Shown: positions 21,552-22,689 of the stretch, in pieces
Layout: every line of letters starts with the position of its first letter
How positions within the stretch are numbered: the stretch's first letter is position 1
Virus record (IMG/VR): IMGVR_UViG_3300025410_000080
Span: 1 to 26,875 of that record
From: a virus
Reading direction: 5' to 3' (one strand)
Length of the DNA: 26,875 nt
Position numbers and translations under genes: made by a program
The notes under the pieces: generated by a model
What the model saw: only the letters and a program-made list of their open reading frames with translations
Databases searched by the model: none
What the model was told of the DNA's origin: nothing

Positions 21552-21580
21552 TATTACACTAATTTAAGGTAAGTTGCATC
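21552..21580 (-). promoter_or_regulatory. Candidate leftward promoter for the recombination operon
   Basis: Read leftwards: TGCAAC, 16 bases, then TAATAT with TG two bases before the -10, upstream of the 64-aa gene. The -35 match is poor; the call rests mainly on the -10 and on the need for a promoter in this short divergent gap. Confidence 0.3.
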
Positions 21581-21603
21581 TATTTTTGATTTGTGTTTAT
21601 AAT
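21574..21603 (+). promoter_or_regulatory. Candidate rightward promoter (perfect TATAAT)
   Basis: TATAAT at 21598-21603, with TTGCAT 18 bases upstream as a weak -35. Transcription would begin near 21610, at the foot of the folded RNA described next. The -10 is perfect; the -35 matches only three of six positions. Confidence 0.45.
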
Positions 21604-21609
21604 CACATC

Positions 21610-21729
21610 AGCGGATTGATACCCGTAACCAAAAGTCCAAGACCCTTTAGGGTTGCTTTGAGCATTTAGTAAAAGTTGTGGACTCTTTTATTAAGTGGTA
21701 TCAACTTAGAGCAACCTTAAAGGGTTTTT
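21610..21729 (+). ncRNA. Candidate small regulatory RNA with long hairpin terminator
   Basis: A 24-pair stem (21639-21662 with 21705-21728, four G-U pairs) continues after a 7-base bulge (21698-21704, GTATCAA) into a 13-pair stem (21663-21675 with 21685-21697, two G-U pairs) capped by a 9-base loop (21676-21684, TTGTGGACT). It ends in TTTTTC, as an intrinsic terminator. The whole bulge is complementary to TTGATAC at 21616-21622, and six loop bases (TGGACT) to AGTCCA at 21634-21639, allowing either pseudoknots or an alternative nested fold. A perfect -10 sits ten bases upstream. No reading frame of note lies inside. I know no family that matches; it is either a free-standing small RNA or an attenuator for the rightward early operon. 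Confidence 0.6.
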
Positions 21730-21935
21730 CTATTTCTGCTGGTTTTGATTGGCGGCTCTAACGACATCGTAGCGATCAGAATACAAGCGTTACTAGAAGG
21801 GTAAGTGGATGTAATAGCGCAATATCGGTGGCGAAGTTAGTGCCGATTCCACGAAAGACTGACGGGTTCTGCGATTCCGAGAAGGAACACAGTTGAAGGC
21901 AAATCTAGGTAGGCTAGGTTTGCTCATCCTCAAAG
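21730..21935 (+). other. Gene-free, relatively GC-rich folded stretch (possible second RNA)
   Basis: No open frame with protein-like content on either strand. Visible helices: GCAAATCTAG/CTAGGTTTGC (21899-21908 with 21914-21923, one G-U, five-base loop); coaxial GTGGA/TCCAC and ATCGG/CCGAT around 21807-21851; ATCG-TAG-CGAT near 21767-21777. GC content is visibly above the flanking sequence. Looks like structured RNA or leader, but no known family, and tRNA features (T-loop, acceptor pairing) are lacking. Confidence 0.35.
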
Positions 21936-21939
21936 GAAC

Positions 21940-21968
21940 TTGTAATACATAACTAAGATAGTTACTAT
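21940..21968 (+). promoter_or_regulatory. Candidate early promoter with overlapping palindromic operator
   Basis: TTGTAA (21940-21945), 17 bases, TACTAT (21963-21968). The -10 overlaps a palindrome ATAGTTACTAT (21958-21968). Placed 38 bases before the first rightward early gene. Both boxes match consensus at four of six positions. Confidence 0.4.
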
Positions 21969-22005
21969 ACAAACTTAACTTCTGTCTAATAACAAAGGAT
22001 AAATT

Positions 22006-22443
22006 ATGGAAATCATAGTAGAACACATGGAAGAATTGCCAGATGGCGGTGCAATTTGTGTAGTGCATTATGATGAAGAAGCTTTACAGTTTTTGGTACA
22101 AAAAGGCGTAGTTGCGGCAATTAAAGAAGGTATAGAACAGGAGAAAGAATGTTTGAAGAATTCTACAAAAAATACCCCCGTAAGGTGGCTAAAAAAGATG
22201 CTGAAAAAGCATGGAAAAAACTTAGCCCAGAAAATCGACAGCTTGCTATTAAAGCTATCGACTTACATATCCAATATTGGGAACTCCAAAACACAGATAG
22301 AGCCTACATTCCCTATCCCGCAAGCTGGCTCAATGGCGAAAGATTCTGTGACGAAATCACTCTTGAAGCCCCAAAGGAAAAAGAAATCCCCTGGACTTCA
22401 ACTGAAGAACTTACAATCAAAAAAGGTAAAGAAATCGGCTTAA
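22006..22443 (+). CDS. Early protein with overprinted basic C-terminal extension
   Basis: A 145-aa frame with AAAGGA seven bases before ATG. Residues 1-48 (EHMEELPDGGAICVVHYDEEALQFLV) read like a complete acidic small phage protein, with the 'EELPDG' phrase seen in similar proteins of about 50-60 residues. From residue 49 the frame runs for 98 codons through the next gene in another register, giving a Lys/Ser/Gln-rich basic tail (LKPQRKKKSPGL). Either the protein has gained an extension by loss of its stop, or a base error in the sequence hides the real end. Function unknown. Confidence 0.65.
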   Translation: MEIIVEHMEELPDGGAICVVHYDEEALQFLVQKGVVAAIKEGIEQEKECLKNSTKNTPVRWLKKMLKKHGKNLAQKIDSLLLKLSTYISNIGNSKTQIEPTFPIPQAGSMAKDSVTKSLLKPQRKKKSPGLQLKNLQSKKVKKSA

Positions 22444-22529
22444 ACCCGTATGCTGGCGAATCACTTTGGGAATACAGACAACGAATATCGGGTGCGTTGC
22501 GCAGTAAGACAGTTAATAGTATGGCGTAA
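22149..22529 (+). CDS. Replication-initiation / helicase-loader type protein
   Basis: A 126-aa protein with AGGAG six bases before ATG. The opening FEEFYKKYPRKVAKKDAEKAWKKL and the later YIPYPASWLNGERF are the two hallmarks of a domain common in phage replication proteins (the 'F-x-x-F/Y-x-x-Y-P-x-K ... P-x-x-W-L-N' type) usually found near helicase or loader genes. In longer relatives it is the C-terminal part of a bigger protein; here it stands alone. Its first 295 bases overlap the extension of the upstream gene and its end overlaps the next gene. Confidence 0.75.
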   Translation: MFEEFYKKYPRKVAKKDAEKAWKKLSPENRQLAIKAIDLHIQYWELQNTDRAYIPYPASWLNGERFCDEITLEAPKEKEIPWTSTEELTIKKGKEIGLNPYAGESLWEYRQRISGALRSKTVNSMA

Positions 22530-22689
22530 GACTTGGGGATTGCAAAAGTTCCGTGAATACATACCTAAAGCCAAATTTGAACAGCGCATCTGGGATTTAT
22601 ATTATGAGCAATACAAATTGGGTAATAGTGGAAAGGATGGCGAATGGTTGAGCAATGGATCGTTGCCGCAACAGGCATTGGATATTTAA
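22450..22689 (+). CDS. Small phage protein with RQL-x-x-WR motif
   Basis: Up to 79 aa, but the start is uncertain: ATG 22450 lies inside the previous gene without a ribosome-binding site, and GTG 22492 gives a product starting VRCAVRQLIVWRKTWGLQKF, the conserved-looking part. The sequence continues REYIPKAKFEQRIWDLYYEQYKLGN and ends shortly after GKDGEW. This 'AVRQL-x-x-WR-x-x-WGL-x-KFREY' pattern belongs to a small phage protein I have seen adjacent to replication genes. Basic and helical; function unknown. Confidence 0.65.
   Translation: MLANHFGNTDNEYRVRCAVRQLIVWRKTWGLQKFREYIPKAKFEQRIWDLYYEQYKLGNSGKDGEWLSNGSLPQQALDI

Follow-up and report, generated by a model that had tools for sequence, protein, structure and literature searches.

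The hairpin-bearing site at 21610-21729 on the + strand of the window (the whole 26,875-base IMG/VR record that we analysed) belongs to a family of 91 distinct elements from phage contigs, in which leader segments pair far beyond chance with unpaired parts of the hairpin that follows them. An outer stem (S1), an inner stem (S2), the pairing of leader segment a with a bulge, and the pairing of leader segment b with the terminal loop all covary. We propose, at close to an even chance, that the element is a transcription attenuator whose leader acts as antiterminator and whose hypervariable a/b code gives the terminated RNA homotypic control in trans.

In the window, a perfect -10 box (TATAAT, 21598-21603) precedes a transcription start predicted at about 21608-21611; the -35 candidate (TTGCAT, 21574-21579) is weak despite this perfect box, and simple promoter and terminator scans leave the hairpin site unflagged. 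The leader opens with a small 5' hairpin (21612-21625; CGG at 21612-21614 against CCG at 21623-21625), at which protein could bind; its stem is 100% paired in 44 relatives, most of which have CAG/CTG instead of CGG/CCG. The loop of this small hairpin holds segment a (TTGATACC, TTGATAC(C), 21616-21623), the complement of the bulge, as judged from covariation and own-leader preference. Segment b (AGTCCA, 21634-21639), the complement of the terminal loop, was assigned by own versus cross pairing energies. Folding and covariation place the 5' arms of S1 and S2 at 21639-21662 and 21663-21675, and the 3' arm of S1, which is also the terminator 3' arm, at 21705-21728. Between the arms lie the terminal loop (TTGTGGACT, 21676-21684), whose TGGACT pairs with b, the 3' arm of S2 (21685-21697), which nascent-RNA folding and covariation also put at the centre of an alternative leader helix, and, on the 3' side of the hairpin, the 7-nt bulge GTATCAA (21698-21704), the partner of a by covariation. 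The U tract (21724-21729) is the predicted intrinsic termination point, and all of these features are on the + strand. With G-U pairs counted, S1 has 24 bp; S2 has 13. The hairpin folds at -49.6 kcal/mol, compared with -25.4 +/- 3.6 for dinucleotide shuffles (z -6.7, 0/200). A preliminary description had reported the 24 + 13 bp hairpin with its 7-nt bulge, the complementarity of GTATCAA to TTGATAC and of TGGACT to AGTCCA, the upstream TATAAT, and a U tract at the hairpin end; each is present (the U tract reaches about 21729), though b is short here, its pairing of 5-6 bp (-6.1 kcal/mol) being below that of most relatives.

Relatives were collected with scans for the core of the Rfam family RF02932 and with two patterns that had the bulge largely as N; together these gave 334 loci. 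A structure-only detector that used the fold, the bulge, and the U tract alone found 124 distinct hairpins in these loci, and an energy cut-off kept the 91 elements; three chance hairpins in an early list (L023, L030, and L133) were removed. Where the hairpin is followed by an RF02932 core, a perfect leader/bulge match of at least 6 nt occurs in 45 of 49 cases (2.9 expected from shuffled leaders), and for hairpins without the core, largely fetched with the bulge as N, the count is 47 of 75 (3.75 expected). S1 is 22-25 bp long in 84 of the 91 members and the bulge is 7 nt in 84, while S2 spans 4 to 20 bp. A -10-like hexamer (mostly TATACT, TATAAT, or TATAGT) ends 11-16 nt before a in 88 members, and across the family about 5-8 nt separate a from the predicted 5' end; the evidence for a promoter is this fixed spacing, such hexamers being common in A+T-rich sequence. 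Close phages have near-identical flanks around a hairpin that has diverged yet retains the leader/bulge match in other letters (e.g., TGGAAT/ATTCCA in L003 and TGATGT/ACATCA in L004). About one third of members (e.g., the L025 and L018 groups) keep a and have no clear b:loop match. Several members without b (L018, L041, L172, L105, and L011) carry GTGA, GTGAG, or GAGA (GNRA-like) loops in place of a code loop.

Complete relatives that have the element have one per genome. We also met a 44.4-kb contig (IMGVR_UViG_3300047557_000594) with two hairpin alleles 35.2 kb apart (L338:314 and L339:15528). The idea of two codes in one phage was rejected; the contig is likely an over-length or mixed assembly because its end repeats its start in diverged form (about 73-93% identity). 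Comparison of 21610-21729 with Rfam returned as best matches only chance eukaryotic miRNA models. The hairpin family is absent from Rfam, where nothing covers the hairpin itself, which bears out the earlier remark that no known family fits.

Compensatory changes, which the preliminary description had proposed to look for in homologous phages, are abundant at a:bulge and at b:loop alike. In an alignment of 44 relatives, 98.4% of the a:bulge cells are paired and six of the seven pairs show double changes (one position is U-A in 19, A-U in 18, G-C in 5, and C-G in 1), and the complete structure is 96.9% paired versus 86.3% in shuffles (0/500) and 31-55% when slid; these counts are of sequences rather than independent events, and kinship inflates the pair counts. 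Each of 14 distinct bulges pairs best with its own leader among the 14 compared (14/14), and 35 distinct loops pair with their own leaders at a mean of -11.0 kcal/mol, compared with -5.4 kcal/mol for cross pairing (0/20,000 permutations). When 46 members were pooled across types, own pairing again exceeded cross pairing for bulge and loop alike (0/20,000). It is hardly credible that the site is an ordinary terminator or a chance palindrome: a strong stem and a U tract are what such a terminator would have, but the covariation of leader pairing excludes chance.

The element is an RNA of the + strand. The hairpin folds at -43.2 kcal/mol as + strand RNA and at -29.7 kcal/mol as the complement, with the + fold better in 90 of 91 members; G-U pairs are fixed at alignment columns 45-134, 65-113, and 70-101; and a consensus scan found no promoter on the opposite strand.

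The two sets of pairings compete. Segment b ends 0-6 nt ahead of S1 and its partner loop lies about 37 bp off along the stem; because of this distance from the stem base, b:loop should be unable to form in cis while S1 is intact. In RNA that ends at the bulge and so lacks the S1 3' arm, leader:bulge pairing has P > 0.5 in 81 of 91 own leaders and in only 35 of 270 leader-swapped chimeras, and S2 hairpin pairing at this stage is 0.38 with the own leader versus 0.79 in chimeras, by an equilibrium calculation that leaves kinetics out. In roughly half of the members the leader helix takes in the whole stretch of loop, S2 arm, and bulge, up to about 26 bp in L214; in the window the preference for this helix is only marginal to moderate and extends over roughly 8 nt. 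Addition of the S1 3' arm is predicted to shift the equilibrium to the terminator with loss of the leader helix, and in the complete RNA the terminator fold is predicted to be favoured. The predicted logic is that of an attenuator with the leader as antiterminator. A nested fold that excludes the terminator stem had been described before; it is well supported, being predicted in the nascent RNA, where it competes with the terminator. The accompanying suggestion of a switch or a double pseudoknot holds for the switch, in that the predicted folds are exclusive, and fails for the pseudoknot in its full cis form, which we rejected on the b:loop geometry. Kissing of a and bulge in cis is possible, and a free RNA of about 120 nt, as had been suggested, is plausible.

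Such kissing, in cis or between molecules (cf. phi29 pRNA), could also yield an RNA that is stable or multimeric and serves directly as decoy, in packaging, or in protection, for which termination would be a mere 3' end. The near-constant lengths of S1 and bulge next to a freely varying S2 would fit a geometric ruler, and the members with GNRA-like loops and no b would fit as well. We nevertheless regard this explanation as improbable, given that b:loop cannot coexist with S1 in cis, that the invariable site ahead of the replication operon suggests regulation, and that the window has no match to the Rfam model of phi29 pRNA (RF00044).

The evidence for an attenuator includes, besides covariation and the predicted switch, the -10 spacing, the U tract, the single copy per genome, and the position, which is always ahead of a structured RNA or ORF and the replication operon. 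On this reading, the main transcript of the phage, for replication and late genes, would begin at this site. The nascent leader would first pair, through a and b, with the loop, the S2 3' arm, and the bulge to form the antiterminator helix, and the polymerase is then predicted to go on to transcribe RF02932 and the operon. Should the leader be occupied, S2 would fold, followed by S1; transcription would stop at 21729, and a stable RNA of about 120 nt would be released. Loop and bulge are left single-stranded in the predicted fold of the terminated hairpin, and the released RNA would bind a and b of new leaders of its own type and drive them towards termination. Early infection would read through, and terminated RNA would accumulate with genome copies. 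The outcome would be a self-reinforcing, type-specific shut-off that times the operon within one infection; in late-arriving like phages, the operon of the same type would also be shut off, which would amount to exclusion. We infer this action of terminated RNA on same-code leaders in trans in large part from how the code varies.

Mean pairwise identity is 0.80 in S1 and 0.82 in S2, compared with 0.60 in a and the bulge, 0.35 in the loop, and 0.31 in the b region. The loop is saturated among relatives (35 distinct sequences), and there is no conserved unpaired core of the kind in which a riboswitch or protein-binding leader would hold its ligand, although a protein may still bind the small 5' hairpin; the unpaired parts, that is loop, b, a, and bulge, are the most variable. 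In pairs of elements whose downstream RNAs are at least 98% identical, S1 is 91% identical and loop, a, and bulge only 55-57%, and the bulge differs in 44 of 54 such pairs. The preliminary description does not mention this hypervariability. Judged from the sequences, the contrast between S1 and the code would be predicted by recognition between molecules, and not obviously by a purely internal match. Recognition between molecules is known from plasmid incompatibility and from P1/P7 or P4 immunity. Recombination of whole alleles, for example, is another possible source of the hypervariability; exchange of alleles would likewise require that many of them be maintained.

A cis-only attenuator would choose between leader and terminator pairing inside a single RNA, according to transcription speed, NusA, a phage or host protein on the small 5' hairpin, or some other effector, and its code would drift with only the internal match mattering. 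This would explain all of the pairing evidence equally well, and it agrees with the conserved stem of the small 5' hairpin and with the retention of a:bulge in members without b. Yet S1, which is also constrained by pairing, retains 80% identity whereas loop and b are close to random, codes change wholesale between elements with almost identical downstream RNA, and no effector is known; we consider a cis-only attenuator rather unlikely.

Thirteen nucleotides downstream of the hairpin begins a match to RF02932 (Betaproteobacteria-1, function unknown in Rfam; 21742-21867, + strand, 92.7 bits versus a gathering threshold of 49.4, E 2.3e-16), which is absent from the preliminary description. The first operon genes follow at 22006-22689 (+ strand) and include an ORF at 22149-22529 that matches replication initiation proteins (PHROG 270, E 4e-14). 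This ORF overlaps, in a different frame, another at 22006-22443, and both are retained in L007. The element separates leftward genes (an exonuclease and an uncharacterised PHROG family) from the rightward operon. After the U tract of the 91 elements we found RF02932 in 45 cases and three other RNAs, designated types C, B, and D, in 23, 14, and 5; downstream of all four RNA types lies an operon with a replication ORF of this kind, which shares the motif YPRK..A...A...W...L. Type B (about 200 nt; alignment A3, e.g., L214:1504-1738 and L189:6639-6873) is strongly conserved directly after the hairpin and has a multi-branched consensus fold with seven compensated pairs. Type C (about 230 nt; alignment A2, e.g., L239:1912-2173 and L227:1172-1433 on the - strand) has compensatory changes at 20 of 40 predicted pairs and a long-range GGTGAT/ATCACC stem; neither type B nor type C has a match in Rfam. 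Type D (about 250 nt, CTAGCCCG...CGGTAAAGGC...; L215:4418-4692 on the - strand, L248:2034-2308, and L191:3752-4026) is likewise unannotated. Two elements have a nuclease-like ORF after the U tract instead of a structured RNA. These are L054 and L062, both on the - strand, where the ORF is small (EFEVQAYLW...VRGEVKA); in L054, RF02932 lies further downstream, beyond it.

An obligate link between hairpin and RF02932 was rejected: 18 loci with the hairpin pattern lack RF02932, most of them with other RNAs. RF02932 also occurs without the variable hairpin, right after a -10-like box (GGTATACAT or TGTAAGAT), in L136, L145, L162, and other Paraburkholderia/Caballeronia loci and in L037 and L032, where its transcript may begin with RF02932 itself. 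In the window, a strong additional hairpin (GCAAATCTAG...CTAGGTTTGC, 21899-21923) sits just 3' of RF02932, and the conserved RNA may extend past the Rfam model. In the stretch that separates the downstream RNA from the first gene, several relatives (L306, L247, L236, and similar loci, about 300 nt after the hairpin) and the window (21948-21985) have a palindrome, GTTAAGGTAACTTAAC for example, that shares bases with a second promoter-like sequence and is possibly a repressor operator. The long double-stranded stem with its asymmetric bulge, just upstream of conserved RNAs, would also suit a processing signal for RNase III or a similar enzyme, which would free the downstream RNA or mRNA while leader pairing tunes cleavage. 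Such a signal needs neither a U tract nor a covarying hypervariable leader code, and we think it very unlikely.

The window also encodes a tape measure protein, tail fibres, and an endolysin. A Pfam search of 22 contigs of relatives, five of them apparently complete (with terminal direct repeats) and the others possibly fragments, found no tyrosine integrase, serine recombinase/resolvase, or ParA. For lack of these genes in the 22 contigs, a role in prophage immunity was rejected as unlikely, and control of timing or of superinfection is the better fit. The element was found in none of 300 Burkholderiales genomes (model R2 with strict filters and no positive control, which makes this weak evidence). 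In INPHARED (50,697 phage records), the window region has no full match and only a 40-base match outside the hairpin, and queries from three relatives gave no full match. From the missing integrase and ParA and the absence from the Burkholderiales set and INPHARED, we conclude that the carriers are uncultured, probably virulent phages. A betaproteobacterial host is only suggested by the name of RF02932 and by a beta-proteobacterial MAG contig (L172) that carries an element. A more tentative extension of the attenuator with trans control, to which we give an appreciable chance though one well below even, is widespread RNA-only recognition among virulent phages. Each phage type would carry a private a/b code, and the terminated RNA of one genome would silence the replication/late operon of every genome in the cell that bears this code. 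Superinfection exclusion by type, or timing that depends on copy number, would then need no protein repressor; negative frequency-dependent selection would keep the codes diverse.

If the proposal is true, phages without a detectable integrase run a protein-free, self-specific RNA switch at their main promoter, P4-like RNA control extends to apparently non-temperate phages, and recognition between phages becomes readable from sequence. The family would also be a large natural set of orthogonal RNA attenuators, of which natural examples have been described as scarce (PMC3753616). The unexplained RF02932 gains a context, and three further unannotated RNAs are revealed at the same position.

Among known systems, the CI RNA of P4 brings about termination by pairing with two segments, seqA and seqC, of the transcript to which it belongs (PMC4825925). 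The element resembles it in being an untranslated leader RNA of a replication operon that is complementary to segments of the same leader, with premature termination as the outcome in P4 (PMC4825925) and as the predicted one here. In contrast to P4 CI, both recognition segments lie within about 20-30 nt of the hairpin, the hairpin itself is the terminator, and the code is hypervariable. P4 CI also serves lysogenic immunity in a temperate phage, whereas the 22 contigs have no detectable integrase, resolvase, or ParA; no seqC-like target was identified downstream of the hairpin.

The c4 RNA of P1 and P7 is structured, its unpaired segments a' and b' match two stretches of the transcript from which it comes, and heteroimmune variants exist. 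Here, too, unpaired segments of a structured RNA match two segments of their own transcript, but the targets are downstream in P1 and upstream here, and terminator logic is absent from c4. The c4 model (RF01695) had no match in the whole window at the gathering threshold or locally at E <= 5.

In the attenuator of pT181, a leader segment is the antiterminator, RNA bound in trans favours the terminator, and specificity can be changed via the interacting sequences (PMC3753616). The same likeness is seen here in that terminator and leader-antiterminator folds are mutually exclusive in prediction and that this is lost in chimeras. The antisense RNA of pT181 comes from the opposite strand, whereas the candidate trans RNA here is the terminated sense transcript; the better + strand fold in 90 of 91 members and the fixed G-U pairs speak against an opposite-strand antisense.

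In the window and in roughly half of the family, RF02932 follows the hairpin directly; it is a module separate from the hairpin, which also precedes three other RNA types. That RF02932 might play a role like that of the put RNA of HK022 is only a thought; a terminator gate would, we speculate, be sensible if the downstream RNAs acted in a put-like way and made the polymerase ignore later terminators. As with put, which opens an early operon (PMC9378689), termination would be influenced by an element of the nascent RNA, but put suppresses termination via the polymerase, whereas the element described here is itself the terminator, with a switch.
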